This document shows, piece after piece, positions 5,161 to 29,208 of a stretch of DNA of 64,000 nt (position 1 is its first letter; each line of letters starts with the position of its first letter). The notes beneath the pieces were generated by a model that was not told the DNA's origin, did no database searches, and was given only the letters and a program-made list of their open reading frames with translations. Origin of the DNA: Hybos culiciformis (taxonomy: Eukaryota; Arthropoda; Insecta; Diptera; Hybotidae). The stretch spans positions 138,357,308 to 138,421,307 of the forward strand of contig OZ023273.1 of assembly GCA_964007475.1 (NCBI GenBank). Reading direction: 5' to 3'. The position numbers and the translations under genes are program-made.

Positions 5161-5364
5161 CTAAATGTTTAAATTTAATATATATACACATGGTCCAGTA
5201 GTGTCCAATGTATTATACAATTCTGTATCATCAGCCGGATAATCAATTTCCTTTTGAGTCGATCCACGTTTTCGATCCTGATAAATTTCACCAAAATTAG
5301 GACTTTCATTGAATTTTCCATATTTAGATATTTTCGCATCCATACGTTTTTTGCCAATAAATTC
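5161..5364 (-). CDS. Gene A last exon, copy 2 (duplicate terminal exon)
   Basis: This is a second, diverged copy of the exon at 7227-7021, with the same acceptor, GKKRMDAKISKYGKF, FGEIYQDRKRG and the same ILNLNI-stop ending. It lies in a tandem duplication of about 380 bp that also includes the flanking TAATTCGTGGCGCC motif. The conserved Arg of the FR motif is Gly here and several basic residues differ, so it may be decaying. It could be an extra repeat spliced after copy 1 (both are phase 0), an alternative terminal exon, or unused. Confidence 0.5.
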   Translation of the reverse strand, partial: EFIGKKRMDAKISKYGKFNESPNFGEIYQDRKRGSTQKEIDYPADDTELYNTLDTTGPCVYILNLNI

Positions 5365-5531
5365 CTGTAACATAATTATGTAAGTTTTAATTTTTTTTTC
5401 ATTTAATAAACATTTTGTGTCATACATGGGGAAATCACGGAAAATTTTTTAATTTTTTTTTAGGTCCTAGTTCATTTTTGGCTTTTATGTTCTAGTTCAT
5501 TAGGTACTAATTCGTGGCGCCATAGTTTATA

Positions 5532-7005
5532 CCACACGTTTTCCAAGTGTAATTCAGAAAGTATCAATTTTAGTTCAGAAAGTATCAATTGTAATTCAGA
5601 TTAGTCAATTTTAATTCAGAAAGTATCATTCATTCTTAATTCAGATTAGTCAATTTTAATTCATAAAGCGTCAATTGTAATTCAGATTAGTCAATTTTAA
5701 TTCAGAAAGTATCAATTGAACTGTAATTCAGAAAGTATCAATAAAAATCTCAACTGCATATTATTTTTTGAGGACACAATTTTTATTAACTCGTACCTGA
5801 ATTTGTCTGTATATTTCTATACTATTTTCGACACTCTCGTAGACCCACTTTTCGTCATCACAGCGAGCTGAAATTTGGCACACAGGTTCATGTCGCGTGA
5901 CAATTGAAGCTATCAAAATTTGAAGCGGAAATTTCCATGGAAAACCCGGAAAATCGGGAAAAATCATTTGAAAATTTCGTACAAATTTGAGTAGTGATAA
6001 ATCCGTTTTAGGAAAAATGCAAAGTTTTTTGATTTTTCCGAAAAAAATGTCCGGAAATTTCCGACTTTTCCGGAAAATTTTCCGGTAAAAAAGTTTTCTA
6101 AATTATGCAGGATCAAGTTCCCTATCAACTGGCATCATTACTTTCTCTCCGACAATGGTGAAAACTTGCAGAAAATTCATGTAAAACGCTTTTCCGGAGT
6201 TTTTCCGACCAAGGAAGCGTTTGAGCGTTTTGCAACCTGAGACAAAGTTGTAGAGCGAAATGAGTTGCATAAAGTTGCTTTTGCAGAAAACTCCATGGAA
6301 AAAGCGGAAAAATTTTCATCGACATGATTAGTCATAAAATTGTTTTCAAACATCTCCATGCAGCACATAATAACAATTTAGTTAACGTGAAAAAGGCAGA
6401 AAATAAAAATAAGTTAAAAACGAGTTTTCCAAAAAACTGAGGCCAGGCCGCATGAAAAAGTAGAAAATAACTTTTTCTTCACACACAGAGGTGGACTCAG
6501 ATTTTTTGATTAGGACTTTTCTCTTGAATATTCTTGCTCTTCAGGAATCAAATAACTTACTTCCCAATCAAAAAATCTGAGTCCACCTCTGTGTGTGAAG
6601 AAAAAGTTATTTTCTACTTTTTTATGCGGCCTGGCCTCAGTTTTTTGGAAAACTCGTTTTTAACTTATTTTTTATTATTATTTTTTTTTTTTTCAAATTC
6701 TTTGACCTATTCCTAAACATTAACAAAATTTAAATATATGATTTAATGTCGTTTTTTTAAATTCCATTCAGGCTTTCTGAATTACAATTGATATTTTCGG
6801 AATTACAATTGATAGTTTCTGAATTAAAATTGACTAATCTGAATTACAATTGACGCTTTCTGAATTAAAATTTACCAATCTGAATTACAAATGATACTAT
6901 CTGAATTAAAATTGACTAATCTGAATTACAAATGATATTTTCTGAATTAAAATTGACTAATCTGAATTACAATTGATACATTCTGAATTACACTTGGAAA
7001 AGGTG
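5532..7005. mobile_element. 1.47-kb foldback element in the duplicated 3' end of gene A
   Basis: The ends are CCACACGTTTTCCAAG and CTTGGAAAAGGTG, flanked by TA at 5530-5531 and 7006-7007. Both arms contain arrays of TGTAATTCAGA..AGTATCAAT-type units (about 5555-5750, inverted at 6780-7000). The centre (about 6405-6670) is a second, nearly perfect palindrome of about 260 bp. No coding sequence is visible. Confidence 0.75.
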
Positions 7006-7020
7006 TAGAGAATTTGAGAA

Positions 7021-7227
7021 CTAAATGTTTAAATTTAATATATTTACAGAGAGATCAGGTCCTGATGATATGTCCAATGCATCATCAGCCGGATATTTAA
7101 TTTCCTTTTGAGGCAAATTCACTGCGCCACGTATTCGATCCATATAAATTTCACGAAATTCAGGACTTTCATTGAATTTTGCATATTTAGATTCAATCGC
7201 ATCCAAACGTTTGTGGCGAATACATTC
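7021..7227 (-). CDS. Gene A last exon, copy 1 (module 3 basic segment)
   Basis: After a TTACAG acceptor this exon encodes the basic segment with HKRLDAIESKYAKF and FREIYMDRIRGAV, an acidic tail, then a stop at 7021. A GTAAATATATT donor at 7047-7046 would end the exon at 7048, and it aligns with the donor that closes the homologous exon of gene B. In B that donor leads, after 69 bp, to a further coding exon. Here the sequence after the donor runs only about 40 bp before it meets a foldback element at 7005. So either the protein ends by reading through the old donor, or it splices to copy 2 near 5364. Confidence 0.65.
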   Translation of the reverse strand, partial: ECIRHKRLDAIESKYAKFNESPEFREIYMDRIRGAVNLPQKEIKYPADDALDISSGPDLSVNILNLNI

Positions 7228-10200
7228 CTGTAATATAATTATGTAAGTTTTAATTTTTTTTCATTTAATAAACATTGAAGTGGTTTTTGTGTCATATATG
7301 GACAAATCACGGATATATAAACATGTTCGACTGTCGAACAAATTTCGTAGTAAAAACGTGCCCAAAAAATATCCATAGTTTATGTTACACCGCTAGGTTA
7401 AGACGTTTTCGAAGTTGAATAATATTTTTTTAAGGTCTATATAATACAATTTCCATTAAAAGTAAGTTTAGTGGAAGTTTGTTCGATTGTTATACCCCAA
7501 TATAAAAAAAAAATTTCCTGTTTACCTGCATTTTTATTCATTTAAAAATTTTACTTGATGATAAATTTCTCAAAACAAACTATTCCTAATTAATTAATTA
7601 CGTTTTAGTTTATAAATAAAAAAATGTAAACAACTAACCTAGCGGTGGTAAATAGAACTAGGCTTATTTTTTGGGAACAAAAAATTTGTAGTAGATAACC
7701 ATCCTGTTTATATATCCGTTCAGCAAATACATTTATTGAATTTATTGAACGCAACAATCACTCTTAGCCAGGCCCGGATTTACATAACTTTGCGCCCTGA
7801 GTTAATGTTTAGATCTTTATTTTTTAATTTATTAGAATTTTTTTCGTAATTTTATTGTAACAAATTTTTCGAAAACTTCTTCAACCGATATTTTGTCTAA
7901 CATTTTATTTTCTATTGTCTAACATTTTATTTTGTCTAACATTTTATTATCTATTTTCGATCGTAAAAACATTCAATTTTTCATCACGTAAGGTTGATCT
8001 CAAGTAAGTTTTTATTCTTCTCAGTGCAGAAAAAGACCTTTCTGCTGAACAATTGAACAATTGGATGCTGGAGTTGATAAAAATATTCTTAAAATAATTT
8101 CTAAATTTGGATAGACAGCCTGCATATTTTTTTCTTTAATCAATGAATACAAAGCATTTATATTCAAGTTATGCTCTTTTATAGTTTTTAAATATTCTCT
8201 AAACCCGATTCGAAAATTCACGGAACGAATTTTGCGCCCTTTTGAATGTTGCGCCCGTGGCGGTTGCCCCATTTGCCCATAGATAAATCCGGAACTGCTC
8301 TTAGCCTACGAAAGCATCCATGGAGAAAATTCCGACTGATAATATTTTGAAAGTTTCTAACCGATCATAATAAAATTTTGTATGAAAGCGCTTTCGGTAA
8401 AGACGAGTCATAGACTATTCGCCATATATGTGGTTGGGTCTAAAATGCAAAATCCGTGAAAAATTTATATAAAAATAAAATTCACTACTCTTATATCTGA
8501 TCATGCAAAAACCGGGAAAAATATGTAAAAAAAATTACATCCTTACATTCAATCGCAGACTAACTTCTTATGTATGACTGTAGGATAAAATATAGTTCAC
8601 ACCAAGTTCGTGAATAATAATGAAACAAATAAATAAGGAATTTTTTTTTCTTTTAATATATCTTTTATCCGTCCATTAATTACGGAATTTGATGTATTCA
8701 TTAAGCATCGTAAAGTATAAAAAAATACAAAATTATAGTCTTATCCCTGGGATAAACTGATTGCAACGATGTCGGACGGCGAGAAATATCAAAATATAAA
8801 TAATCGCCAACGTTAACTTCGAAACTAGTCGCTTTTGCAAACGTTCACATATGTATATATTTTAATATTACTTGAGTCACATCCGTCGCGTTTAGTTCAT
8901 TCCAGAAGTTATGCTTACTCACAATTTCTATTGGTTCATCCGGTGTATATAAAAATTCTTTATCCAATTTTTTATCTTTGATTTCTCTTTAAAAAAAAAT
9001 TAATCTTTGCGTTAAAAAAACATCAATAAAAAAAAAAATATTACTGTTCTTCCATCATGGCAGCCATCGCTCTATGATCATTGTTACAAAGTCTCACTGC
9101 CGTTTCTAATCGTTCCAAAGCTTTTTTATTTCTTCGATCACGAAGATTATCTTTAAAAGTTTGAATAAGTGCCAAACGTGCTTTCATCTTATTTTCCAGC
9201 TGTATTGATGTATTGAATATATAATAAATTTAAGTTAATTTGCAACAAAAAAAAGAAGAAATTTAAAAAAAAAAATTTTTTTTACATCACTTGGCGTATC
9301 AAACTTTACATTAGCCTCGAATTGTTCCAAATCATCATATAATAATTCCCTCGTTCTTGTTAGTGGTCTTGTAAACCATGGTATTTTAACTTCAGCACTG
9401 GGAGAATCCATAAATTCTTCCTCTGAAGTTGGGATTTCGGTGTCATTGAAGGAACTTGTACTGAAAAAATATTAAGTTTATAAAATCTAAAGCCACTATC
9501 AAGATAAAAAATATTTTAAGTCTATTATATTATACGATCTTCGAATCTTCGAATTTCCGAAAAAACAGTGTAAAAACCTAAAAAAAAAGGAAAACAGTAA
9601 CAATTTCCCACTTATAACGAAATTTTTGACGCTTTTTTCGCATTTAGAGTAGGGTTGCCAAATGGTCTCTTTAAAAGAGAACATGCACTGAGCCAAAAAA
9701 GGCGTACTAAATTTTAGGACTTTTGGCATTAAATCAAGTTCTAGTATTTTTATACACAAAACAACAACAAATACATTTTTTTTATTAAAAAAAAAAATAT
9801 TTTATTAAAAAAAACAATATTTAAGTTCTTTCGGTATCATATCAAGTACAAACTGCGCTAAAATCGTAAAATTAATGCCCAGAGGCATAATTTTTAGTAC
9901 CAACAGAATTAATGTTATTCCAAAAATTCTTGAATTAAAATATTTGAATTTTAATACTATGGCTGAATGGTAGAGTGATGGAATGAAATGCTAAAGACCG
10001 AGGTTCGAATCCCGACGAAGGCATAAGAAAAATGTATACGCTATTTATATTTTCTATTTTATGTACATGAATAATTTTATTACTATGGCCTAATGGTAGA
10101 GTGGTCGATTGAAATGCTAAAGACCGAGGTTCAAATCCCGAAGAGGGCATAAGAAAAATAATAAGAAATTAGAAATAAAATAAATAAAGAAATAAATAAA

Positions 10201-13200
10201 AAAAAAAAAAAAATAGAAAAAAAAAATTAAAATTAAAAAATTTTTTTTTCTCCTTTAAAAAATTTTAATCCCAAAAGGCATTGATTTTAGTAAAACCGTC
10301 ATTGGACGGTTTTTGTTGCGGAAAATACATGATTTTATGCATTTTTACATGATTTTAGCACGTTTTTTATCTCAGTGTGGTCTCTTTTTTAGCTTCACTC
10401 TTTTTTTCTCTTTTTTGTTTTTCAAATGGTCTCTTTTAGTCTCTTTTTTAGACTTTCATTGTTTTCAAGCTATGTATTTTAAATGTTTTCGACAAATTGT
10501 CAGATATGAAGTTTTTTTATTAGAAACTAATGACAAACTTTGAAAAAGCTATAATCTAGCTTAAAATCGTTTCAATTCTTCAAACAATGTTCTAGTTCTG
10601 TACTTATAAAAATAGCTCAATTTTTTTTGTAATCCTTGGGCAAAACGCAAACGTTTAGCGAGTAAAGAGCAAAGAGAGAAATAGACTTACTCCTGAAACT
10701 GTAAAAGGAATAATGGCAGTAGTATACAACTTGAAGAATATCTCGTGTAAAGATTTTTACTGCCTAATAAAAAATGACAAAAAATTCTTAAATACAGTTT
10801 CTAGCTCAGGCAAATATTTTCTCGTTCAATAATTTTTGTTTAGTAAATGGGTTTTTTTAATATGTCTATCGGATTTATAAATTAATATATAATTTCTATG
10901 AAATTTCGCAATAAATAATTAAAATTCAAAATTTTTGAAATTTATCTTTGTACAAGTAAATATGTTAAAACGAATTGGTTTATCAGTTATGTAACGTTAC
11001 TAACTCAGAGAAATTTTATTGAAATCATTTTTGTTCGATAAATTTAATTTTGTTATATTTATGTACTAATAATACAATCTATAATTTCTATGAAATTTTG
11101 CAATAAATAATTAAAGTTCGAAACTTTTTGAAAACTTTTTGAATTAAGCTTAGTACAGGTGACAATGAATTACTTCATTTTTTATGTGCATCACTGAAGT
11201 ATTTATATTAATGTATAAAAAAAAAACTGAATAAAAACTAAATTATATTTCTTGGTCTCTTTTTGATCTTTTTTTTTTCACCCGAATGTTCTCTTTTTTC
11301 CAGATTTTTTTTAAAATGTACTCTTTTTTTACTTGACTCATTTGGCAACCCTAATTTAGAGGGATCTTTAATGTTCATTAAATTTTATTTTCTGAAAGCC
11401 TAATTTTAAGCCTTTACATTTCAAATGGCTTTAGTGGTAAAAAGTTTGTACCTAAATCTTCTGATATTTTGTATTAAAACTAAAAATTAATACTTACTCT
11501 GTTTCGGTTTCTTGATCAGTCTGCGAAAAAAAAGGAATTATTATCAATTTATAAGCGAACACTCATGTAAAATCAATTAAAAAAAAATTTAAGGTAATAT
11601 ATATTATGTATATTTATTATATTGTTTGTGTATTTCTGAAAAGATTAATATCAAATCTAAATTCAAACAGAATTCTCTCCAAATTTATTAAATCTTACAT
11701 CAAATATTGTTTTTTCACGTGTTCTCATAAACTCAACCAAAATTTTATTTTTGAATTCGTCTCTAAATTTGTCATCTTCTGCATATCTTTTATATTTTCG
11801 TACTATAGCTCTTCTACGTTTAGAAAGTATCAATTTCTAAAATCAGGAAAAAATATATAATATATAATGTGTTTGTTTTTTAATTTATACATTCAGGGCT
11901 GGCTCTTCCGGCCACCAATAAAAGCTTCTATGCAATTTTTTATCTAAAATTTCCAGATCCGTTAAAATTTTAGCTTCCTCTGCAGGTGTTATATTCACAT
12001 CTTTAATAACATTAAGTCGAGCCAATGCTTTAAAAGCATTTTTACGTTCACAATAATTTTTAAAATTTGCCCGCACATCTGCTACATTAATCTCTTTATT
12101 GAGTTTCTACAAATGATTTTAGATATATTTAAAATTTAAAAGTTTTTGTTTCAATAATCTATTGTGATTTTACTTCAATTTTATCTTCTAAGTTTGTCAC
12201 TTGGAAACGTTTCTCATATTTTCTCAATTTCTCATGTCTTTTTGAAAGTGGAATTTGAAGAGGGTTTTTCATTTCCTGAGAAGGTGGACTTGAAAAATAT
12301 TCCAATTCAGAAGGCGGAATATCATATTGATAAACTGAACTACAATCTGACACAATGTCCGGACCCGGTTCATACGTTGCATTTAATCTATTTAATGCTG
12401 GCTCAATAAGATCATACGTTCCATCTAATCCCCGATCCTGAGTTCTATTTAATGCTGGCTCAATAAGATCATACGTTCCATCTAATCCCCGATCCTGAGT
12501 TCTATTTAATGGTGGCTCAATACGATCATGCGTTGCATTTAATCCCCGATCCCGAGTTCTATTTAATGCTGGTTCAACAGGATCATGCGTTGCATTTAAT
12601 CCCCGATCCTGAGTTCTATTTAATGCTGGGTCACCTAACGCGGACTAGAATATTAAGATATTTTTAAAGTTTGGTTAGGTACATCATTTACTACAAAAAA
12701 AAATATTAAATAAAAGACTGGACTAAATTTCTTACCACATGAGAAGCTTCACAAGCAGGATCCTCCTAAAAAACAAAATATAAATTAATGGTATAATTGC
12801 AATTTAACTTTATAATACTTATGTAATCTACTATTTAGTGTAAAGAAAAAAGAAACTGAATAAAATATTTGAATAAATTACTTACTTCAGCTTCAAGATT
12901 ATAATTTTCATATCCCGCAAATAAGGCGGCAGTGAGTATTCTACATATGTATTCGTCTCTGAAACATTTATCTACGGCATATAACTGGAATTTTCTTTTT
13001 ATTGCATTTACCCTTTTTCTCAGCAATTCTTTCTGCAAAATTATTTTATTTTAAAATTTTATATATTACAAAAATATTATAAATTTTTTTATACATAATA
13101 ATGCGGTTCAGTTTCTTCATAATAATAATTTCTATTCAATTTTTTATCATAAAGTTCGATTTGTTTAAAAACTTCTGCTTCCGCCCATCTATCAGAAAAA

Positions 13201-14077
13201 TCTGCAGATTCAACAAAGTACAATCTCTTAAATGCTTTCACTATGCGTTCTTTATTTAAAAACGAATGATATTCTAAAATTGTATTAAACCTTTTATAAC
13301 GCTTGAGCCTTTTCTATAATAAATAAAAATGTAATATATTTTTAATTATTTGCGTATGTATTGTTTTAACATTTTAAGTGAACAATTTAATTATTTCACC
13401 ATATCAGGAGTATCGCTTTCTTTGATTTGGTGTTTACTTATGGCATTTATAAATCTAAGTTTTGCTTTAGTTATTGGTGGTACATAATTTTGAACCTCTG
13501 AATCCTTCTGGCATAATTCACGGTCACTAAAAAATTCATATTCAGATTCTGGTACCATGCTTCGAAATGAAGAATCGCTCTTATTTTCTAAGCATTGATC
13601 AAACTCTCCTTTTGCAAATTCTGGTTTCTAAAAAATAATTTTCAATTAAATTAAAAACAAACTATATAAATAAAAATCAACTTGAATATTTACATTTACT
13701 CTTCCAATGTTTAAGAAATCAGCAACTTCTTCATCAAGAAGATAATCGTCCTTAAGCCAAAAACAATATTATATTGTAACATAAAAATTATAATAATGAA
13801 AATTAATTTACCAATATAAGTCTAGATACATTATCATTAAATCTGGACGGCCCTAATTCTAGGCCCATTTCAAAATCATCATAACCGTACAGACGACTTT
13901 CAGAACTTTTATTTGACAGACGACTTTCAGAACTTTTATTTGTCAAACGACTTTCAGAACTTCTATCGAAGAAACTTTCAAGTGCAGTTTGATAATGCGA
14001 CGAATTCTCGAAACTAAAATTATAAAAAAAAATTTAAAAAATAAAAATTCTTAGAAAAATAAATAAATTTACCTCAT
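7021..14077 (-). CDS. Gene A: unrecognised three-module protein, about 15 exons
   Basis: Spliced model on the minus strand, in transcription order: 14077-14073, 14013-13812, 13750-13700, 13627-13400, 13313-13095, 13032-12886, 12765-12736, 12644-12174, 12106-11891, 11836-11699, 11520-11498, 9460-9286, 9199-9045, 8986-8923, 7227-7021. Every junction has GT..AG and the frame stays open for about 776 residues to TAG at 7023-7021. The protein repeats one module three times (about residues 87-284, 400-569, 570-768), each with an acidic P.SE.E segment, a helical segment ending DKKL.R.FY, and a basic KY..Y....FR.EY segment. It has no signal peptide or membrane helix and few cysteines. Gene B has the same exon order and phases, which supports both models. 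I do not recognise the family. The exon chain is well supported; the 3' end is uncertain because the last exon is duplicated and flanked by a transposon. Confidence 0.75.
7311..7717. mobile_element. Short TIR element in a gene A intron
   Basis: GGATATATAAACATG at 7311 and CTGTTTATATATCC at 7704-7717 are inverted. Inside them, CACCGCTAGGTTA at about 7390 mirrors AACCTAGCGGTGG near 7640. It lies in the intron between gene A exons 14 and 15. It is non-coding and its superfamily is not assigned. Confidence 0.55.
7775..8285 (-). pseudogene. hAT transposase C-terminal remnant (ZMYM1-like)
   Basis: On the minus strand the frame gives YPNLEIILRIFLSTPAS, then, after a broken stretch, SFSALRRIKTYLRSTLRDE. 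These are typical of the hAT C-terminal dimerisation region of the ZMYM1-like lineage. The piece is interrupted: the SERSF core is frameshifted, and the end is disturbed by three copies of a TCTAACATTTTATT repeat (7895-7950). Flanks with GCCCGGATTTA and GCGCCC are common at edges of such copies. It lies in an intron of gene A. Confidence 0.7.
8923..11520 (-). CDS. Gene A module 3 acidic and helical segments (exons 11-14)
   Basis: Exon 11 is a 23-bp microexon (11520-11498, TDQETET plus two bases). Exon 12 (9460-9286, 175 bp) carries SSFNDTEIPTSEEEF and PWFTRPLTRT. Exons 13 (9199-9045, 155 bp) and 14 (8986-8923, 64 bp) together make 219 bp, or 73 codons, the same length as the single helical exon of module 1, so a phase-2 intron splits this copy of the segment. 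Exon 14 ends DKKLDKEFLYTPDEPIEI. Exons of 175, 155 and 64 bp recur at identical lengths in gene B. The intron between exons 11 and 12 contains a 1.7-kb hAT-type element. Confidence 0.75.
9951..10027 (+). repeat. tRNA-derived SINE head inside the hAT element
   Basis: A box TGGCTGAATGG, B box GGTTCGAATCC and trailing GGCATAAGAAAAA match the SINE family at 3234-4341. It is about 128 bp from a second copy in the same orientation. Confidence 0.65.
10079..10152 (+). repeat. tRNA-derived SINE head, second copy
   Basis: The A-box region is TGGCCTAATGG and the B box GGTTCAAATCC, followed by GGCATAAGAAAAATAATAAG and an A-rich tail. Together with the copy at 9951 it may represent a dimer. Confidence 0.65.
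11699..12106 (-). CDS. Gene A module 2 helical and basic segments (exons 9-10)
   Basis: Exon 9 (12106-11891, 72 codons) ends with DKKLHRSFYWWPEEP and is followed by a GTATAA donor that mimics a Val-stop. Exon 10 (11836-11699, 46 codons) reads KLILSKRRRAIVRKYKRY then FRDEF, and ends at the donor GTAAGA after Phe-Asp. Gene B exons 8 and 9 are the counterparts at 219 and 138 bp; exon 10 of A is also 138 bp. This pair shows the highest visible protein similarity between the two genes (SKRRRAIVRKY is shared exactly). Confidence 0.75.
12174..12765 (-). CDS. Gene A exons 7-8: minisatellite linker and acidic segment of module 2
   Basis: Exon 7 (12765-12736) is a 30-bp phase-0 microexon. Exon 8 (12644-12174, 157 codons) starts with about four and a half copies of a 57-bp, 19-residue repeat containing LNRTQDRGLDGTYD, and two neighbouring copies look identical, so expansion is recent. 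It then continues with the acidic segment of module 2 (DIPPSELEYFSS) and a KLRKYEKRF stretch. In gene B the matching linker is a different repeat (EPEY) inside the preceding exon, and its exon 7 lacks the 57-bp units. The linker seems free to vary in length and sequence. Confidence 0.7.
12886..13627 (-). CDS. Gene A module 1 (exons 4-6)
   Basis: Exon 4 (13627-13400, 76 codons) holds the acidic segment around VPESEYEFFS and PPITK. Exon 5 (13313-13095, 73 codons) holds the helical segment ending DKKLNRNYYYEETEP. Exon 6 (13032-12886, 49 codons) holds the basic segment with NAIKRKFQLY and FRDEYICRI. All three introns are phase 0. Exon 5 appears to run into a stop (Val-stop), but that GTATAA is the splice donor; the following exon opens with Lys-Glu-Leu-Leu in frame. 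Gene B exon 5 is also exactly 219 bp. Confidence 0.75.
13700..14077 (-). CDS. Gene A exons 1-3: start microexon, serine repeat, acidic leader
   Basis: Exon 1 carries only five coding bases (ATG AG, 14077-14073) before a GTAAAT donor. Exon 2 (14013-13812) starts with T, completing AGT (Ser), and encodes three tandem copies of a nine-residue SSESRL.NK-like unit (27 bp, about 13975-13898) and then an acidic stretch. Exon 3 (13750-13700) encodes DDYLLDEEVADFLNIGR. Gene B has the same arrangement, with a 20-base coding exon 1 in the same phase and an exon 3 of the same 51-bp length, which is the main reason for choosing this ATG. B lacks the serine repeat. Confidence 0.65.
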
Positions 14078-14399
14078 AATTTACTTATTATAAATTTTAA
14101 TATTGTATTTATGCGAAAGTATAATTTGATAATAATTTAGAAATTTTATAGAAATATGATAGGTACTTTGTAATTTTTATTTTATTGACTTTTTTTATTT
14201 TGATTTTAAATTATATGAAAACTTCTCGTCTTTATTTTAATTTCAAGTTAACTAAACACAAAACTTTAAGATCAAATTTACACAATTTTATGAAAATACA
14301 GAGATTTATGATGTTCATTATTATTTGCAAAGTTCAAAAAATAAAGTTCAGAAAAAATTAAAGATACATTTTTTGTTTAAACCGGTTTTACATTCATTC

Positions 14400-15559: not shown

Positions 15560-16922
15560 TTTTGTGATTTGAATTCTGGGAGGATGTTTATGCTGAAGAA
15601 AATATTTCGTCAGCTTTTGCGATCTGTCTAAGGTAGCTGAAATCTCACATAGACAACTGGAGTTACAGAGCTCGCCTAATTTCAACGGAAAAGAGGCTTA
15701 AACAGTGGTTAAATGGAGTCTTCTTCAGAAAAGAAGGAAAAAAAAAACAAACTTCGATTAAAGTGTATCAGACATCCTCTAAAAACATTACACTAAGTTA
15801 TGTAGGGAACTGAGGAGAGAGATTTCTCATTGTCGTGAACTGGACAAGAACAGGGGTAATATTAAAAAGGAATGGAGGGTCGTTAACAACATTTTAAATA
15901 GGTTGCCTGCAGCCAATAAACCTATTACTCTAAATATCAATAACTTTACTATCCGGGATCCGGCTCAGGTGGTTAACGAATTTAACAAATATTTAGCTTT
16001 ATCTGCTGAGGCTCTGCAATCAGCTAATCAATCTTGGCCTTGCAACTGTTCTAATCACTTGGATGTTGCGGATGATTCAAATCAGTGTCGTAGTTTTGTT
16101 TTTGACGAGATTTCCTCCTCAGAAATTTTAAACATTATCAGGTCACTGGATAATTCAAATTCTTGTGGCAGCGATGAGATTCCTAGCAAGTTGTTAAAGA
16201 GGATTGGTCTTAATGTAGTTGATGTGCTGACACAGAAGTATATTACTGGGAGTCTTCCCAATTGATCTTAAATGTGCTCTTGTCGTACCACTGCTTAAAA
16301 AGGGTGACTCAACTGATATCAAGAACTACAGGCCTATCTTTCTCTTATCCTCTTATTTCTCTTATTTTTTAAAAGGTTGTCAAGGCCCGAATGTTGAAAT
16401 TTTAGTACTAATTTTCTCACTGAAAAACAATTCGGTTTTCTAGCTAAATTATCTACTGAAGGTGCTCTGCTGGATTTTTGTTCGAATTTGTACAAGGGAC
16501 TTGATAAAAAAATGTGCTGCGCTGGGCTTTTCGTGGACATTACAAAGACTTTCGATATGGTTAACCACGATATTCTGCTCGACACACTTTACAATGCCGG
16601 TTTCGGAGGTTTTATTTTTGATTGGTTTAAGTCATACTTGCAGGAAAGGACTCAAAAGGTCAAAATTGGTTCTAGTCTCAGTGGTTCGAGCTGTATTTCA
16701 CTTGGTGTTCCTCAGCGCTCGGTTCTCGGTTCTATTCTTTTTTTAGTGTATATTAACTCTTTATTCAAACAGAAATTTAAGTGTAATTTAACTGCTTTCG
16801 CTGATGATGTTGGCTGTGCTTACTCTTGTAGTAGTCCGCTGAATTTAATTGCTGATATTAATCACGATTTGTTTATTTTTAGGAATTGGTTTGCCAGTCG
16901 TAAACTGATTGTCAAAACGACA
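15560..16922 (+). pseudogene. Non-LTR retrotransposon, broken reverse transcriptase (Jockey/CR1-like)
   Basis: Frames in the plus strand give a linker region (open 15903-16265), then RT blocks: LLKKGDSTDIKNYRPI, GLFVDITKTFDMVNHDILL, GVPQRSVLGSILF and the catalytic FADD in TAFADDVG near residue 103 of the 16488-16925 frame. It is broken by a stop after 16262, a frame change near 16350-16440 and a premature stop at 16923. The endonuclease end is fragmentary (15560-15780) and no 3' tail is seen. It is a dead copy between genes A and B. Confidence 0.88.
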
Positions 16923-17236
16923 TAAAATATATGTTTGGTAGACATTGTCGTCAGGGCCGCCGCGTAGCCAAGGGGCGGCACAATTTCTATTTATTATGCA
17001 TGAAAAAATAAAATTAAAGAACTCTAAAAAAAAATGTCGAACAAAGTCTTGATTTTAACGGTCAAAAATTTACAAATCATTTTTGTCCGAATTAAAGATA
17101 AAAATAAATAGGTAGGTATTTCTTGTTTTGATGATATTTTGAAAGTTCATATTCTAAATAGCAAAATATAGTTTTTATAATCGACCCTTTTTCTAAAAAA
17201 TCGTTTTTTTTTTAAATAAGCACACAGTAGGCTTAG

Positions 17237-18497: not shown

Positions 18498-21400
18498 TTA
18501 AACAATATCCTTGACAAATCCTTGGCGAGCGATATAAAATGCTGTGATATCATAAAGGTACAAACTAGATTGTTGATCCCACACGCCTGATAGATTATCC
18601 ATTATTGCTGGTGCTGATTCTCTGAATTGTTTACAAATTCCTTTTTTTTTCGATTCACGTTGACGCTCTTTTCTGAATTTATCTGGAGTTAATGAATATT
18701 TTTCATACCACTGGAATAAAATGGTTTTATGCACTTGAGAATTTGGCAATTGAGTAAATGTTTATATTTAATATATTACCGATATCCTAATAAATTTAGC
18801 GTCCTTTCTTTCCTCAAAACTTTTCCACGAAAATTCTTTGTCTTCATCATCAAATTTAAGTTCCTTCCTCTTAGGCAATTGCACTGCGGCACGTATTCGG
18901 CGTTCATAAGTTTCACGAAACTCTTTACTTTCCTTATATTTTTTATATTTTTTTGCAATTGCATTTAAACGTATATTAAGGATTTTTTTCTGCAATACAT
19001 CAACCATTGAAAAGTGTTTGTAATTGCATGCGTATTGTAGGATATAATTTAAAAAAAATCGAGAAAAAAAAATAACATTTAAAAAATATTTAATAAATAA
19101 TTAAATAAATAATTAAGGACGTTTTCTTTTATATTACAAATAAAAGTGTACATTTAAAAAAAATACAAATAGAAATGTACATTCACTTTTATTTGTCATC
19201 ATCAGATTGGTATCTTATCATTGATTTGTTCATACTGATTTGACTGTTCGTAAACCTTTTGTCTGTAAGCACATTTGACCAAACTTATTTGTTCTTAAAT
19301 TTTTGTTCGTGAAATTTTTTTCGTAAATTTATTTGTTCGTAAATTTTATTTGGGACGAAAAAGGGATTTAAGAAAAAAAAAATACGAATAATACTCTTAC
19401 GGACAAAAGTTCTACGAACAAAAACAAAAAGCCACGGAAAAATATTTATGGTAAAATTAGCACTCAAATCATAGTAATTCATCTTATCATCATAACAGCA
19501 TTTGATGTTCATTTAGTGGCGCTTAAAAATACAAATATAAAATAATAATTTACTCACAATTTCTGGTGGTTCATTCTCCTGGTAGTAGAATTTTCTATTC
19601 AATTTTTTATCCTCTAGTTCCCTTTAAAAAAAATTTATGATTTATGTTTCAAAGAAATATACACATACATTTTTTTTTTGCTCAAAATAAAAATATTACT
19701 GTTTTTCCATTAAATATGCCTTCACTAAAACGTCATTGTTGCAATGCTTAGTTGCCTGTTTTAATCGTCGTAAAGATTTAAGATTTCTTCGGTAAGCAAG
19801 ATTATCTTTATACATTTGAATAAGTGTCAAGCGTTCTTTCCTCTTCCTATCCATCTGTGATCATATTTTTGAATACATAATAAATTTTACTTTATTTAAA
19901 AACAAATTTTAAGAACAAAAGTTTTTACCTCACTTGGGGTATCATTTAAGCGATCAATCTCAAATTGTTCCAAGTCTTCATATAATAATTCCTTTGTTCT
20001 TGTAAGTGGTCTTGTAAACCATGGTAATTTAATATTAGTACTGGGGCAATCCAAAAATTCTTCCTCGGAACTTGGAATATCACTGTCGTTAAATGAACTT
20101 GCTCTAATAAAAAATTACCATATTAAAATACCATTATAAAATGAATGAATTGTAGCGAATTTTGATATTTTGAATTTTTAATCACTTAAACTTTCATCGA
20201 AACCTTTTACATTTTCTTTCATATAAATTTAATTTTTAAAATTTTATTGGCTTTCAACAGCGATTAGTGCACTACGTATAGGGTTTAGCCAAGGATGATC
20301 ATCGCCTATGCACTTGTACCACATTTGTTATTGTAATCCCACTTTGTTTATATGAATAATAAAACAGAATAGGAAAAAAAAAACCCTATGCACTTCATAT
20401 ACACTTCGTGCTTATGTAAGTGCATGAAAAAAAATATTTGTATTTCGTCTTCGCACTTCCCATTTAAAAAAAAAAAATCATTCGCACTTTGAATAGGGAG
20501 AAAAAAAAAACATTTTTTCTGTATTTATTTTTTTCCTTCTTTTTTGTGCATGCACTGTAAAATGCGAAATTCTTATTTATAATATTTTCTGATCGCAATT
20601 GTGTGATTGATGTATGAATAATGTAAATAAAAATAAAAGGACTGCAGAAAATTAATGTTAATTTAAAAATTAATATGAAGAGGATTATTTATTTGCAATC
20701 AATTTTAAAGCAATTATCTCAGAGCTTGATTTGCTTTGTAATTATTAATCGTATTTTCAAAAAAATTTTAAAAATAAATTTTCAAGAAGAAAAAACAGAA
20801 GCTTATTTTTGGATTTTAAACGAAAATTCTAGAAGAGGATGCTAAAAATATTTTAAATTACATTTAAAAATACAAAACTTGACTTTAAATGTAAATAAAT
20901 TCGAGCAAGAGCCCAATCAAGTTGCTTCATAATATGTTGCATATGTTGTTTTTTGGAAAAGTGTTTTGTACGTTGTTATTTATTATATTACAAGACGAAA
21001 AATTAATTTTTAACTGTGTATTTTTTCCGTGTATTAATAAAACATGCCAAAAATTTATGATGATGGTAGTAAATGCACGTTCAATCTTAAATTTTGGGCA
21101 TCACAGGCACAGGATATCTAAACAAATGAATATCCACTTGTTATATAATCCATATAATTTGGGCTACATGACATAACCGCGAATGTCATAACCGCGAATT
21201 TTTTTGTCATAACCGCGAAATAAAAAATAAAAGTGTCATAACCGCGAAAAATGTTTTATATTTTTTTTTGTCATAACCGCGAAAAAATATGGCAAAAATT
21301 GAAAAAAAATCGTTTCGCGGTTATAACATTGTAAACAATTTTCAAGCATACTATTTACTTTCTCTTTCAGACATATGAAACCTGTGTATAAAAATTTCCA

Positions 21401-21607
21401 ATCCATTATTTTATTCTCGATACGGCGAAGGTTATGTACGTTTCAATATCCTGTGGGTGCAGGTAAAAAAAAAAGAGTATTTATGTAAATTCTCCAAGAA
21501 GAAAATATGCATGCATAGACTTTTGTGATTCTATTGCGTTATATCTTTGATTAAAATAAAAATACTAATACTTACTCCTCTTCAGAGCTTGATTCTTTTA
21601 CATCAGT
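18498..21607 (-). CDS. Gene B module 3 and C-terminal tail (exons 10-15)
   Basis: Exon 10 is a 32-bp acidic microexon (21607-21576). Exon 11 (20103-19929) carries DIPSSEEEF and PWFTRPLTRT. Exons 12 and 13 (155 plus 64 bp) form the 73-codon helical segment ending DKKLNRKFYYQENEP. Exon 14 (18989-18780) gives RLNAIAKKYKKY and FRETYERRI. Exon 15 (18710-18498) follows a 69-bp intron and encodes a tail that starts WYEKYSLTPDKFRKE, an extra partial copy of the KY..FR motif, and ends at TAA. The tail exon has no counterpart in gene A within this window. Confidence 0.7.
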
Positions 21608-24600
21608 CTGAAAAAAAATGAGTTATGTTAATTCAGACACAATTCTCTTTAAGAACCCTCACTGTGGAAAATGGGTCTTGTTTTGTTTTGATTGTAGAGT
21701 TAATACAATATCGACTGAAGTGTTTTTTTGATATGTTAGAGTAACTGGCTCCAGGAATAGTAAGCCGGATTTTTTAAATTTTGAGTGTTTTGGCTCAAAT
21801 TGGCCTTTGAAAAACTTGAATATATTGAGATATTGAGATATATTGAGATTCTGAAGTAAAGGAAAAAGATAATAAAATATCTCAAAAGCAGAAATAAAGC
21901 TAAAATATCACTCTCCAAGGCTGGTGGCTTTAATTTTCTAAACAACTTTTAATTAATTTCATTTATTTCTAAGTATTTTTTAATTTTTTTAATAAATTGC
22001 AGTTTCTGCACAGAAATAAAATTCAAATACAGTTTTGTGCTTTTCTGGTAGAGGTATTTTACGTACTATTTTTGTCGCATTTTTGAGTGAAATAAAACAA
22101 AAAAAACACACGAAAAATTTTTGGTCAGATAATCTTTATTTCACCAGAGCTCCCTATTTTGCAATTTTTTTTTGTATATTTTGACTTGGGACGACCCTAA
22201 CCGTGGCTCCCAACCCAAAATTTTTGGTCAGATAATCTTTATTTCACCAGAGCTATCTATTTTGAAAACAATTTTTTTCTTGTATATTTTGAGCCGGGAA
22301 GACCTATTATGAAAAAAAAAAATTTAATCTATATATGGGACAAAATCAAACCTAAGGGAAAATTGTGTCGGCGGTTTTTGAAAAATAAAAAAGTAATAAA
22401 AAAAGTATCAAAAGAAATTCTTATATCCACCAATATTTAGTTTATTTTATTGTAAACCTAAATATTGATAATTATTAATAATTTTTGGAAGAAATCACTT
22501 TTTTTTTTAACTTTGAAAAAAAGCTTCCAGTATGTCTCTCTCCATACAAAATTCGTTGTCGGCAAAAGAAAATTTTGAACTATGTAAGTGCAATAAATTA
22601 TATTTTTTTAGCTTAAGTACAAAAGTAATTATTGGACAGTGTAAAATTATTTGTTCTATTTTTATGATCAAATTTTGGTGTCTGGTTGTCCCTTCATTTT
22701 ATCTGTTTTTTTACTGTTTTTGGTTGTCGGTGTTTTTTCTAGCTCATGATATTATAAGTTAAATATGCATTTTTAGTTAAAAAAGAAAAACAAAAACAAA
22801 AATAAATTTACAAAACGGTTACTAATTTATATAAAAAATTAAATCCATGTAAATTTTGTTAAAAGAAAATTTTTTTTTTTTGTTTTTGAGAACAAAAATG
22901 GTTAAGTAAAGTTTTTGATTGTCAGGAGTGAGAATATATTTATTTGATAATTTATGCAAAAAAAAAAAGAATATCCGAAATTAAAACACAAACGGAGGTC
23001 GTTTATTATTTAAATCATGACCATGTATGTCAACTTTTTCAAATTATTCAAAATAATTAGTTAATTTTATTGATTAAAAAAAATGCATGAAATGTCATGA
23101 GTAAGAAATTTTAATAATAGGAAATTTTTATACATTTCATAGACCAAAAATCGAAAGCAAAGAGGAAGCAATATAATACCAAATATTTGGCGACAATAAA
23201 ATATAAATCCGGAACGTTACGAGAAATTTAAGAACAAAAAATTTGAAAACAAATTTATTTTGAGATTTATTCAGATTCCGAGTCAGACTAAATTTTTTTT
23301 CTCTAATTTATAATGTAATTTTATTATATATATAATAATTGCAATAAAAAAATAAAAAACATTGAATATAAAAATTTCGAGATTTTTCTCCTTTTTCTTT
23401 TCTAGCTCATGACAAATTTTTCAATTTTTATTTAAAAAAAAACAAAAAAAATTTTTTTTTAGATAACCATCAAATTATTAAGATAGTGAACTAAATTTTG
23501 CACAAGATAAGACTATTTTCAGTGCTTCTGGTGTTTTTTTATTTTTTAAATTTTTTTTTTGCTTTTTTCCACAAGGTTTGATTTTGTCCCATATATAAAA
23601 CCGAAGTTGTATGTTTGTCTGTTTGTATGTTTGTATGTTTGTCTGTTTGTAGGCTCCTAAACCGCTCAGCCGATCGTTTTCAAACTTACACCATGTCTTT
23701 GTGTCAGGTCGGGGGTCCTTATAGGCTATTTTAAAATATGATTGGCCTCCTACCCAGGGACTTCCCCGGGGGCGGACTTCAAAAGTTCGTCCGATTTCAT
23801 TCAAATTTAGTACGTAAAAAGAGGAAGTGATTACACACAAATTCCGTAACAAAAAAATTGTTGACCTCCTACCCAGGAACCTCCTACCCAAGAACCTCCT
23901 ACCCAGGGACCTCCCATTGGGGCCTCCCATTTGGGACTCAGGGACTTCCTACCCAAAGACCCTCCTGGTGGCGGACTTTAAAAGTTCGTCAGATTCCATT
24001 TAAATTTGGTATGTAAAAAGAAGAACTGTTTACGCACAAATTTCATAACAAAAATTTTGTTGACCTCCTACCCAGAGACCTCCTACCCAGAGACCTCCTA
24101 CCCAGAGACCTCCTATGGGGCCGGACTTGAAAATTCGTTCGATTTCATTAAAATTTGGTATGTAAGAAGAGGAAATATTTACACACAAATTTCGTAACAA
24201 AAAATTTGTTGACCTCCCACTCAGCGACCTCTCCCGGGGGAGGATTTCAAAAGTTCGTCCGATTTCATTCAAATTTGGTATGTAAAAAGAGGAACTGATT
24301 ACACACAAATTTCTTAACAAAAAATGTATTGACCTCCCTAGGGAAGGACTTCAAAAGTTTGTCCGATTTCATTTAAATTTGGTACAAAAAAATGATTAAA
24401 CACACGAATTTCGTAACAAAAAATTTGGCTCCCTCTCTTCGAATATATAGAAATCAATTTCTTTATTACTAATAACTACAAAGTATTAAAAACTAAACTA
24501 CTCAACCGATCGTTTGGAAATTTACACAGTGTCTTTGACTCGGAAAATTTGAATGGCATCCTACCCAGAAATTGGCTCTTACTGAAAACTAAAAAATGCG

Positions 24601-27600
24601 TTAAAATTAACGAAAATTTCGTTGATATTGCACATACGAATACGAACATTTCGTTGAAAAAAGAACGTTGTTCGTTAAGAAAGTTCGTTATACCCCAAAA
24701 CCAAAAACTTTCAAATTCTTCAGCAAAAACAACTCAAATACAAAAAAAAATTTACTAGACTATTTTTTTTTTTTATTTATTTAATTTTTTATTTTATTTC
24801 TTTTATTTATTTATTTTTTTACTTTTTTTTTTTTTTATTAATTTTTTTTAATTTTTTATTTTTTTTTATTTTTTATATTTTATTTTTTTTATCTATTAAT
24901 TTTATTTATTTATTTTTTAAAAAATTTACTAGACTATTTTTTTTTTTTATTTATTTAATTTTTTATTTTATTTCTTTTATTTATTTATTTTTTTACTTTT
25001 TTTTTTTTTTATTAATTTTTTTTAATTTTTTATTTTTTTTTATTTTTTTTATTTTATTTTTTTTATTTATTAATTTTATTTATTTATTTTTTAAATTTTT
25101 TTATTTATTTTTTTTTAATAATTTTTTTTATGCCCGCTTCTAGATTCGAACCACTGAGCTATGAACTAAATTTACGGCAATGTGTAAAATGGAAAATATA
25201 AGTTCTGTATGGATTGAAATGTTTCTTTCCCGTATTTAACGATTAACGAACTTCTTTAACGAGTACTAAAAAAGGATAGTTTTTCTGTAATGTGAAAAAA
25301 TACGAAATTTACGTTATGAAAATCTGCATATTCTTAAATTTTCGTTATTATAACGAGACTTTCAATAACGACCTTTTTGGCGTAAACGTTAAGACCTTAT
25401 TTTTCTCTGTGTATTTTCCTAAATTTATAAAATAACTAGCTCCTATAATTGTTCATCAATTTGAAAACAAAAATTTCACTTAAAACGTGTGTTCCACAAC
25501 AACGTGTGTGCGGGTACAGCTAGTTTTAAATAATTTGTAAACGAAAGACTTTTAAAAAATAATTTGAATTTAAATTTTTCGCGCCAAATTATTTTCTTTT
25601 TATAAATGACAAATGATTTTCACTCATTTTTTTGAGTATTGAAACGTCAAAAAACAATGTCGCGTTTTTCGAACTCGAATTTCGAATGAGTCTACGAAAA
25701 TAAATTTTTACCCCCTACAGAATAACTTAATTATATCATACAACGCGCATAAAGAAGATTAATTTCAAAAACTGCAAAAATAGAAAACAAAGAAATATTT
25801 TAATGCGTTGGGGATCGTTATGTTGTATTTAGTGCTATAGAATTTAGATCATTAAATGGAGTATTATATGCGTCAATACACATGCAATCATTTAGATGCA
25901 TCTACGTAAATAATGAAAAAATTTAGATGCATCAGCGTATATAATGAAAAAATTTAGATGCATCAGCGTAAATAATGAAATCATTTAGATGTTTCGTATT
26001 GAATATTACGTAATACCTAAACAAACATAATATCTCTCACAATATTTCAATGCAGCCAAATACAAAAAAAAAAATGAGAAGAAAAAATATTCTCTCTTTG
26101 CAACTACCTCTCCCCTACGCATTAAAACTGTATATTGGATATGTAAACAAAATTTGTTATACAACTCGTTCTGTATTTACACAAAAATACATTGACACTT
26201 GTCAATTTTAATCACTCGACCTTCGGTCTCGTGATATAAGTATTGACTCGTGTCAATGTATTTTTGTGTATACAGAACTCTTAATTAATAACGAATTTAG
26301 TTTACATATACAATCATCTACTATTACAATTTCACGTCGAGGGCTCTTAAATGTATTAAATCTTACATCAAACATTGTTTCTACATTTGTTTCATAAAAG
26401 TTAATATAAACTTGTTGAATGAATTCCTTTCTAAATTTGGGATCTTCTGCATATCTCTCGTATTTTCTTACAATAGCTCTTCTACGTTTAGAAAGGATCA
26501 TTTTCTGAAACAAAAATTTAGTATAGAAAATATTATATTATTGTTTCTGTTTATTTATACATTAATAAGTGGTTCATCTTCCCACCAGTAATAAGATCTA
26601 TGCAGTTTTTTATCCATGATTTCAAAATCTATTAATCTTTCAGCTTCTAATGCAGGGTCCATAATACCTTCACTTTTAACTGCTCTTTGACGTGCCACTG
26701 CTTTACAAGATTTTTTACGTTCACAATACATATTAAATTGTGCTCGTAGCTCTATTAAATTAACCATTTTTCTGTTTCTCTGAAAAACGGTTGAAAAACA
26801 TTTTAAAATATTACATATATTTTTAATAATCAATTGCCTTTTTACTTCAAATGTGTCATCAAGTGGTGATATTGCAAAACGCTTCTCAAATTGTCTTAAT
26901 TTAAATTGTTTAGTTGATTTTGGTACTACAGTAGGTAATTTCATTTCTTCTGTAAGTGGAGATGAGAAATATTCTATCTCAGAAGCCGGTATATCAAGAT
27001 CATAAATTGAACTACAATTTGAGTCATCAGATCCAACGTCAGAATTATCCTAAAATATAATATATTAGTTGTTCTAACTTACTTTATAAAGATTCATATT
27101 TAAAATTTTGCCATGTATTTTGTTTTTGTAAATAAAGTTTGTAAATATTAGATAAATGTTAAAAAATTATAAATTTTTTTTTTTATTATTCACAATTCCA
27201 CTTTTATTGGAATTATTTTTTTAGAAATTAGTTCTCTGGGAATTGTTTTTTGGGAAGAGTCCTAGAATCTTAAAAAAATTGCCCTAATTAAAATGTATTT
27301 TAGTTTTTTAAATTAATTATAACTATGAATTTTATGACACGTTTTCGATTTTAATTATTCTAGAATTCTAGATTAAGCTTTAAGTTAAAATTGATACTTG
27401 AATTGAATTTATCCTATATTGTTATTTTATCTCTATTTAATGAATTTTTATATATTAGTTTTAAAAAAAAAATCTGTAAATTTACATGACTGATAGCAGA
27501 TTAAATAAATAAATAAATATCTTATATCGGAATATAAAAATGTTAATTCAAAATCTTGAGTACAATCATTTAGGACATTTATGTTTTTCTGTTAAAAATA

Positions 27601-29208
27601 TGAGGAACATCTTTAAAATATTTGATCGACTTTAAAGCATTTTATTTATTTTTCTTGATGTTATGAAGCTTTTTTTAATTTTAAATTCAACTATTATAAT
27701 AACTGAAGCATTTTCCGACTTGCATACGACTTCATAGCTTAATTGTATTAATTTATAAAATATAAGTTACAACCAGTGAAATTTTTCATTTTCATCTTGC
27801 TTTTATAAAATTACCGTTTATTAGACTAATGTACATAATTTATATGAATAAAGTAAAAAAAAGATTCATATCATCCAGTTGTGTAATAAAAAAAATTTAT
27901 AAATTAAAATTATGAAGCTTTATGAAGAAAAAAAAAGCGACTTTTACAAAATTGGTATTATTAAAATTTAACTTAAATACTTAAATCAATTTCTTACTGC
28001 AGGGTGAGATGCTGGTTCAGGTTCAAGTTCAGGTTCAGATTGATATTCATGTTCAGGTTCATATTCAGGTTCATATTCAGGTTCATATTCAGGTTCAGAA
28101 TCAGCTTCTTTCTCATTACAGGCAGCGGATATTATTCTTCCTTCGTACTCTTTTCTAAAACCAGCATCTAAGGTATATAACTCATATTTTCTTTGTACTG
28201 CACGTATCCTTTTTTTTAATAATTCTTTCTAAATATATAAATTAAATTAAAAACTTTAAATACTAACTGTAATAAAATCAATCTATACATAATATTGTGG
28301 TTCAATTTCTTCATAGTAATAACCTCTATTCAATTTTTTATCACATAGTTCCATTTGCTTAAGTACTTCTGCTTCCGCTTCTATATTTGGAAGTCCTTGG
28401 GATTTGGCAAATTGTAATCTCAAAAATGCTCTCATGACTCGCTCTTTATTAATTTTCAAATTATATTCTAATATTGTATTATATCTTAAAGATCGTTTTA
28501 GGTTTACCTATTGTAAAAAGTGTAACATAACATTAGTTTACATTATGTACGAAGATGAATTATATTATTAAAGAGAAAAATATAAGTTTCTCACTGCGGC
28601 AGGAGTATCTTTTTTTTTTTTGATTTTTTGTTGATTAAGAGCTTGAACAAATTGAACTTTTGTCTTAGTTAATGGTGGTATATAATTTTTCACCTCTTCA
28701 CTTTTGCATAATTCAGTTTTTGAAAAAAAACCTAATTCAGAATCAGGAATTAAACTTTGAAATGACGCATTACTAGTTCGATTTTCAATAAATTGAAGAA
28801 GTTCTTCTTTTTCAAACTCTGGTTTCTTAAATGTTAATTTCAATTCAATTAGAAATCAAAAAAATTAAAATGAAAATTTATATTTACTCTTCCGATTTGT
28901 AAAAAATCATCAAGTTCTTCCTTGAGCAGATAATCTTCCTGAAATAAAAACCAAACTGAAATAGAAAAAATTAAAATATAAAATTTAATTTAATTTACTA
29001 TTTGCGTTATAGATTTTTCGGCACATGGAACACTTCTCCTTTTGCTATGGGATGAATTTTAAAAATTAAAATTATAAAAATATTATTATCACATTTATTT
29101 AGTTTTTAACGGCTAAGTTTTTATTTAGATATAAAAACAATATATAGTTAACAAAGAAGTCTTACAAAAAAAATTAAAATAAATTTACCTCCTCCTTCTG
29201 GTTGTCAT
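18498..29208 (-). CDS. Gene B: paralogue of gene A, three-module protein, 15 exons
   Basis: Spliced model on the minus strand: 29208-29189, 29044-28999, 28938-28888, 28825-28595, 28507-28289, 28228-27998, 27049-26846, 26779-26561, 26504-26367, 21607-21576, 20103-19929, 19854-19700, 19621-19558, 18989-18780, 18710-18498. The reading frame is open for about 735 residues across 14 GT..AG introns and ends at TAA (18500-18498). Module positions are about 40-231, 267-453 and 454-665, followed by a 70-residue tail. Most introns are short; the intron 26366-21608 is about 4.8 kb and full of repeats. Exon lengths of 51, 219, 138, 175, 155 and 64 bp are identical to those of gene A. The protein family is not recognised. 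Function is unknown; the basic start and absence of a signal peptide suggest it stays inside the cell. Confidence 0.78.
21170..21327. repeat. TCATAACCGCGAA repeat cluster
   Basis: Five copies of TCATAACCGCGAA in direct orientation (21170-21284) and one reversed copy (TTCGCGGTTATAAC at about 21312) lie in the intron between gene B exons 10 and 11. The repeated CCGCGAA stands out in DNA of this base composition. Confidence 0.6.
22105..22300. repeat. Direct repeat of about 105 bp
   Basis: TTTTTGGTCAGATAATCTTT and the following CACCAGAGCT occur twice about 107 bp apart (22110 and 22217), each followed by a T run, TTGTATATTTTGA and a GGGA.GACC word. It lies in the largest intron of gene B. Confidence 0.6.
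23587..25524 (+). mobile_element. Helitron-like non-autonomous element (limits approximate)
   Basis: The left part has (TTGTATGTTTGTCTG)n followed by GGCTCCTAAACCGCTCAGCC, a combination usual near the 5' end of insect Helitrons. The right part ends GCGGGTACAGCTAGT, a typical Helitron 3' end with CTAG at 25520-25523 preceded by a short hairpin. Inside are about five copies of a unit with TTCGTCCGATTTCATT and GACCTCCTACCCAG (23700-24440), and a tandem duplication of about 160 bp of T-rich DNA (24755-25110). No Rep/helicase frame is present. It lies in the 4.8-kb intron of gene B. Confidence 0.5.
25129..25168 (-). repeat. Truncated tRNA-like SINE fragment
   Basis: The minus strand reads a short TAGCTCAGTGG-type A box joined directly to GGTTCGAATC and GGGCATAAAAAAA. 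The region between the two boxes is deleted. It belongs to the same general class as the copies at 3234-10152. Confidence 0.45.
26178..26270. repeat. 93-bp inverted-repeat element
   Basis: CACAAAAATACATTGACAC and GTGTCAATGTATTTTTGTG are inverted around a smaller hairpin, ATCACTCGACC..GGTCTCGTGAT. It sits just downstream of gene B exon 9, at the start of the large intron. Confidence 0.6.
26367..27049 (-). CDS. Gene B module 2 (exons 7-9)
   Basis: Exon 7 (27049-26846) holds DIPASEIEYFSSP and LRQFEKRF. Exon 8 (26779-26561, 73 codons) holds a CERK helical stretch and ends DKKLHRSYYWWEDEP. Exon 9 (26504-26367, 46 codons) reads KMILSKRRRAIVRKYERY then FRKEF. Intron 26845-26780 stays open in frame and could be mistaken for coding sequence, but gene A places a GTAAAA donor at the same codon. 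The exon 9 donor GTAAGATTTAATA is nearly identical in the two genes. Confidence 0.75.
27998..28825 (-). CDS. Gene B module 1 with EPEY-repeat linker (exons 4-6)
   Basis: Exon 4 (28825-28595) carries IPDSELGFFS and PPLTK. Exon 5 (28507-28289, 73 codons) ends DKKLNRGYYYEEIEP, then a GTATAG donor that imitates a stop. Exon 6 (28228-27998) starts KELLKKRIRAVQRKYELY with FRKEYEGRI and continues without an intron into an acidic low-complexity tail of EPEY and related tetrapeptides (about residues 232-266). The tail comes from a 12-bp tandem repeat at about 28010-28100. In gene A the corresponding exon ends before any such tail. Confidence 0.75.
28888..29208 (-). CDS. Gene B exons 1-3: basic N-terminus and acidic leader
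   Basis: Exon 1 has 20 coding bases (MTTRRR plus AG), exon 2 46 bp and exon 3 51 bp. Together they read MTTRRRSKRRSV, then a short linker, then EDYLLKEELDDFLQIGR. The Arg/Lys cluster at residues 4-10 resembles a nuclear localisation signal (inference). The EDYLL..E..DFL.IGR exon matches exon 3 of gene A in length and sequence. Confidence 0.65.

Follow-up and report, generated by a model that had tools for sequence, protein, structure and literature searches.

Two neighboring genes on the minus strand of chromosome 1 of the fly Hybos culiciformis are predicted to encode proteins in which one module of ~190 residues occurs three times. This three-fold repeat is far beyond chance, and within the reach of searches of Pfam, the PDB, Foldseek and a set of 5.8 billion proteins, no description of the module exists. 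We tentatively regard the two genes as paralogues of a local, fast-evolving hybotid family that acts as intracellular multivalent adaptors or scaffolds, a reading in which we have somewhat less than even confidence. The window, i.e. the whole 64,000-nucleotide stretch analyzed, corresponds to C1:138357308-138421307 of chromosome 1, and positions given herein without a prefix are window coordinates. Gene 1 and gene 2 both lie in the window; F1, F2, F5 and F6 denote further paralogues. According to an extract of the genome report (PMC12744202), the genome totals 342.56 Mb over 568 scaffolds, with 152.39 Mb and 25% GC for chromosome 1, and in September 2025 it was counted as the first genome for the genus as well as for the family. 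The GC content of the window is 23-34% in 4-kb blocks.

Exon chains of the two genes

A previous sequence-only reading had proposed two minus-strand chains of about 776 and 735 amino acids (aa), and both were reproduced with intact frames when the exons were joined. Gene 2 (29208-18498) consists of 15 predicted exons that join in frame into 735 aa, and gene 1 (14077-7021) likewise of 15, which yield 776 aa in frame if read to a stop at 7021. The six equal exon lengths named in that reading (51, 219, 138, 175, 155 and 64 bp) were all found in both chains, as were the matching phases: a 23-bp exon in gene 1 and a 32-bp exon in gene 2 leave phase 2, and the 175-bp exons restore it. Moreover, blastp of the open reading frames (ORFs) revealed strong paralogy exon by exon (e.g., 67% over 64 aa, 3e-32, and 62.5% over 72 aa, 2e-29). 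The chosen ends carry AG at 28 of 28 acceptors and GT at 29 of 29 donors; since they were placed by the AG/GT rule, these counts show only that such in-frame ends exist. Both chains, with exons ranging from 5 to 471 bp, are predictions from sequence, least certain at their initial exons (gene 1, 5 bp; gene 2, 20 bp and 46 bp).

The part of gene 1 inside the window (7021-14077, minus strand) was delineated by splicing and by paralogy with gene 2. An uncertain first exon of 5 bp, ATGAG (14073-14077), is followed by a 202-bp second exon with SSESRLxNK repeats (13812-14013) and, by paralogy with gene 2, a 51-bp exon that precedes module 1 (DDYLLDEEVADFLNIGR; 13700-13750). Each module contains three segments, A, B and C, which were located with module HMMs. 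In module 1 these lie at 13400-13627 (A), 13095-13313 (B) and 12886-13032 (C). A 30-bp linker exon (12736-12765) leads to an exon at 12174-12644, in which a linker containing a 57-bp-period (19-aa) tandem repeat precedes segment A of module 2; segments B and C follow at 11891-12106 and 11699-11836. The repeat itself, at 12330-12671, reads ALNRTQDRGL... and is listed as five overlapping 114-nt copies. Beyond the 23-bp linker exon (11498-11520), module 3 is made up of segment A (175 bp, 9286-9460), segment B in two parts (155 bp, 9045-9199; 64 bp, 8923-8986) and segment C, 180 bp up to a conserved donor (7048-7227).

Gene 2 (18498-29208, minus strand), delineated by splicing and by paralogy with gene 1, encodes three modules and a C-terminal tail. 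Its first two predicted exons, one of 20 bp with the ATG (29189-29208) and one of 46 bp without an aligned counterpart in gene 1 (28999-29044), are uncertain; the 51-bp exon ahead of module 1 (EDYLLKEELDDFLQIGR; 28888-28938) is paralogous to that of gene 1. Module HMMs placed segment A of module 1 (IPDSELGFFS) at 28595-28825. Segment B (DKKLNRGYYYEEIEP; 28289-28507) holds predicted helices 1-2, and segment C (27998-28228) predicted helices 3-4 followed by an acidic EPEYEPE linker, in both cases according to the HMMs and AF2. Module 2 occupies 26846-27049 (A), 26561-26779 (B) and 26367-26504 (C), again by HMMs, and a 32-bp linker exon (21576-21607) sets the phase ahead of module 3. The latter comprises segment A (175 bp, 19929-20103), the two parts of segment B (155 bp, 19700-19854; 64 bp, 19558-19621) and segment C (18780-18989), all matched by the HMMs. 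The last exon (18498-18710) encodes the tail with FRESAPAIMDNLSGVW and the stop, and likely homologues of it were aligned in gene 1 and F5.

Gene 1 probably extends beyond the window, with its last exon ~5 kb before the window start. The exon at 7227-7048 ends at a GT that corresponds in position to the donor of gene 2. A candidate last exon at C1:138352320-138352093 has an AG acceptor and the right phase. Its match to the last exon of gene 2 is modest (41% over 34 aa, E 2e-4); with it, gene 1 would encode 843 aa. The intron between 7048 and this candidate contains a recent second copy of the last C exon of gene 1 (5188-5364, minus strand, 177 bp), 87% identical over 135 nt to 7127-7261, in frame and with an AG acceptor and a GT donor. 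This copy may be an extra exon, an alternative exon or a relic. A 41-bp minisatellite (TCTGAATTACAATTGATA...) at 5543-5755 and 6756-7001 adjoins each copy of the C exon and looks as if it had been involved in the copying.

A module repeated three times

Three motifs characterize the module: (I/V)PxSExE(F/Y) in segment A, DKKLxRxYYxxxEP in segment B and KRxRAIxRKYxxYxxDxxFRxEYxxRI in segment C. HMMs were built for each class, i.e. module 1 (six copies), module 2 (four) and module 3 (three), and each matched the other two classes at E values of 7e-6 to 3e-33. The weakest cross-class match was module 2 of F2 (7e-6), and all others reached 4.9e-16 or better. The best E values obtained with shuffled sequences were 3.7e-4 (of 2,100), 0.096 (of 2,700) and 0.019 (of 3,000). 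Thus, the proposal that each protein repeats one module three times is borne out by profiles that cross-match between classes far beyond the shuffled controls. The P, S and E of segment A, DKKL, EP, and some R, E, A, K and F residues are identical in 12 of 12 aligned modules; the alignment took 12 of the 13 modules, and the omitted one is without two of these identical positions. In a tree of all 13 modules, the sequences split by position (module 2, 100/100; module 3, 95/93; module 1, 85/94, of which the first value lies below the tree program's mark for strong support). Since the modules group by position, the three-module gene probably predates the gene copies, i.e. the triplication appears older than the gene duplication.

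An AF2 model of segments B and C (134 residues, 16 rows) had a mean pLDDT of 79, with helix cores at 92-97, and the two segments are predicted to form a small four-helix bundle. Segment A reached a pLDDT of 30-50 in the one model that holds it together with the bundle, and given this low confidence, docking is unsupported by the model. Both models kept a translated intron, which in the B+C model joins helix 3.

No Pfam domain reached the cut-off for either protein, for the separate segments or for the 12 modules; 13 families fell below the cut-off in the scan of the 12 modules, each matched by one module only. Among the candidates rejected, TSGA13 (PF14994; cut-off 27 bits) was the only row for one joined B+C segment, at 13.4 bits (E 0.047), and none of the 12 whole modules, the same copy included, hit it at E<=1. 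EXOC6_Sec15_N (PF20651) scored 14.1 bits in gene 1 against a cut-off of 27.2 and matched one of 12 modules at E 0.0046. Trypan_PARP (PF05887) scored 18.9 bits against a cut-off of 100 (E 0.0016) on the EP-rich linker at residues 228-265 of gene 2. A sequence search of the PDB returned one row at E 0.64 for the whole gene 2 protein and none at E<=10 for two profiles. The failure of the first reading to place the protein in any known family is therefore shared by Pfam, PDB sequences, Foldseek and the 5.8 billion proteins. The structural comparison proposed in it yielded a predicted four-helix bundle, and Foldseek against the PDB and viral models gave nothing below E 1.

Neither the whole chain nor the module profile found a relative among the 5.8 billion proteins, so that the search led to no well-described family. 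A B-exon profile found P0002 alone (41 aa, E 1.4e-8). At the protein level it retains DKKLHRAYYYGEDEP, after which, at the expected donor position, comes a V (codon GTN). Its best match in the H. culiciformis genome is 59% identical, and for that reason P0002 comes from elsewhere or from an unsearched part of the genome. The family may accordingly extend beyond H. culiciformis.

The local gene cluster and its evolution

Whole-genome searches covered 342,369,924 bases in 509 contigs. A module 1 B+C query gave at least 18 matches at E<=1, and 18 of 18 lay within C1:138287605-138617897 (330 kb), with no match outside this stretch among the matches listed. A transposon-encoded protein would be expected in dispersed copies, and was rejected on this distribution. 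The stretch contains six module 1 copies in five or six genes. The cluster boundary derives from genome queries with the C exon, module 1 B+C and P0002, together with tblastn of 260 kb; tblastn found no family member in C1 138.20-138.28 or 138.68-138.72 Mb, and C1:138430001-138590000 and 138640001-138680000 were covered by the three whole-genome queries only. Of the claim of a lineage-specific family, the multi-copy local family is supported in the one fly genome searched, and restriction to a lineage holds only in part, given P0002, a relative absent from this genome. Absence from the 5.8-billion set argues only weakly for a family confined to one lineage.

The paralogues differ in content. 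F1, on the plus strand, has module 1 only plus extra acidic repeat linker exons, and F2 has three modules with stop codons in module 3. F6 carries module 1 and, after it, a 33-bp array; next come modules 1-3 of F5, for which no first exon of its own was seen on inspection; F6 and F5 may be one four-module gene. The array, directly after module C of F6 (C1:138616534-138617431), repeats its 33-bp unit 27 times in frame (SPAADSNLSRK). The description of the family as expanding holds in part: the recent copying of one exon and a possible fourth module in one gene agree with it, but F2 has stops in module 3 and F1 shows module 1 only.

Several other elements occur in and around the cluster. Three similar tandem ORFs lie between F1 and F2 (C1:138313851-138319803); the one scanned is 2-Hacid_dh by Pfam, and we take the three to resemble glyoxylate reductase. 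The left flank holds a GMC oxidoreductase gene (C1:138265983-138268000; Pfam scan of the first 269 residues), and the right neighbor is eIF3h (Pfam). A reverse-transcriptase remnant (RVT_1, E 7e-14) lies on the plus strand between gene 1 and gene 2 (16398-16925). Repeats at 3228-3327, 4262-4361 and 9935-10168 contain a tRNA T-arm-like stretch near GGGATTCGAACC and are possibly a tRNA-derived short element; ARAGORN found no tRNA in the window.

For segments A, B and C only, dN/dS was 0.56 between gene 1 and gene 2 (548 codons, Nei-Gojobori) and 0.51-0.76 in all eight pairs. The value of pS exceeded that of pN in each of the four pairs tested (Fisher p 9e-7 for gene 1-gene 2, and 1.3e-5, 3.0e-3 and 2.4e-3). 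Counter-examples are exon C2 between gene 1 and gene 2 (dN 0.28 versus dS 0.25) and segment A between F1 and F2 (pN 0.25 versus pS 0.20). Eleven exons of gene 1 and gene 2 share 69% identity over aligned positions (1,759 of 1,771 columns, the other 12 being gaps), and seven short introns share 66% (57% counting gaps), as compared to 54% (42%) for shuffled introns. When the ratios and the Fisher tests are set against the two counter-examples and the nearly equal exon and intron identities, purifying selection on the family is real but weak. The gene copies may also have exchanged sequence.

Possible roles and known systems

The anatomy of the proteins suggests how they could act. A unit would consist of an acidic, probably unfolded segment A with a near-fixed IPxSExE(F/Y), followed by the four-helix bundle of B and C, and three or more such units per chain would be separated by flexible linkers, often acidic or repeat-rich. 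The conserved charged residues of the bundle (DKKL, R, K) would bind one partner, with IPxSExE(F/Y) as a peptide that docks on a second. The number and spacing of units would set avidity, and copying of modules, linkers and genes would retune it. A constant peptide in the least ordered part of a protein is the usual mark of a docking motif, which is how we read the most constant peptide in the least ordered segment here. Charged residues kept in the bundle besides hydrophobic ones suggest a binding face. The serial arrangement of three units, joined by linkers that vary (57-bp-period repeats in gene 1, the array of 27 33-bp units in F6, exons with acidic repeats in F1), suggests avidity. From the docking peptide, the binding face and avidity together we infer a multivalent adaptor, a function deduced from anatomy alone. 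N termini that by eye are without a hydrophobic stretch suggest an intracellular location; this location, multivalent binding and any partner are all presumed.

A motif that is near-identical within a fast-changing, low-confidence segment points to an unchanging partner, and it offers a direct handle on what this orphan family does. A wider reading, which we consider unlikely, takes the self-repeating unit of peptide and four-helix bundle, known to date from a single fly and one unplaced fragment, as an undescribed domain family. It would evolve as a multivalent scaffold that is tuned when entire modules and linkers are shuffled, possibly in the context of germline conflict or of defense within the cell. 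The phenomenon itself is not new, as orphan gene families in tandem are common.

The family could instead belong to the male germline (testis or sperm), e.g., as a structural part of sperm tails or germ cells kept changing by sexual selection. This would be compatible with a scaffold and would supply a tissue, and we regard it as doubtful yet worth serious consideration. Tandem, quickly changing, lineage-restricted fly families without a signal peptide are often testis genes, a pattern that this local tandem family fits, its N termini having been judged by eye. The sub-threshold hit of one B+C segment to TSGA13 (testis-specific gene 13) is a non-significant hint that none of the 12 whole modules repeats. 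Axonemal doublet chains stand among the top Foldseek rows at a non-significant E of 2 or worse; these are long helices, however, and may rank for that reason alone. The cluster also lies on chromosome 1, which an extract of the genome report (PMC12744202) gives as one of three autosomes. An intracellular factor that restricts viruses or transposons or defends against them, with fast-changing repeated recognition modules and varying copy number in an arms race, appears quite improbable. The presence of several copies, one of them broken, and the dN/dS of 0.51-0.76 would agree with it, and the complete lack of Pfam domains at cut-off argues against it.

The stop codons in F2, the single module of F1 and the close exon and intron identities (69% versus 66%) raise a further question, namely whether the cluster is decaying, with frames that are leftovers and genes that make no protein that matters. 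We judge this very unlikely, since frames are open through 15 exons in both gene 1 and gene 2 at a dS of about 0.6, the exons are nearly gap-free, and pS exceeds pN in the gene 1-gene 2 pair. Many short exons and fast evolution also recall the effector families with micro-exons known in plant-feeding insects, and H. culiciformis is described in part of the genome report (PMC12744202) as predatory, which might suggest a secreted feeding effector of venom or saliva. The absence of a hydrophobic signal-like stretch by eye, and the length and charge of both proteins, make such an effector hardly credible.

Among small four-helix bundles in the PDB, the best Foldseek rows, the designed binders 9dir_A and 9div_A, score E 2 or worse, a level usual for common helical arrangements. 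Another comparison is with the bicycle proteins of aphids, which carry an N-terminal signal peptide and are defined by paired cysteine-tyrosine-cysteine motifs. Here, the predicted N termini (MSFENSSHYQTAL... and MTTRRRSKRRS...) have no hydrophobic signal-like stretch as judged by eye, and cysteines, in counts only, number 9 in gene 1 and 10 in gene 2. Like the present genes, the bicycle genes form a fast-evolving insect family that is hard to recognize by sequence, as stated in an extract of their description (PMC9168663). The same extract presents their products as putative plant-gall effectors, whereas the hybotid genes, with exons of 5-471 bp, encode a three-fold helical module.
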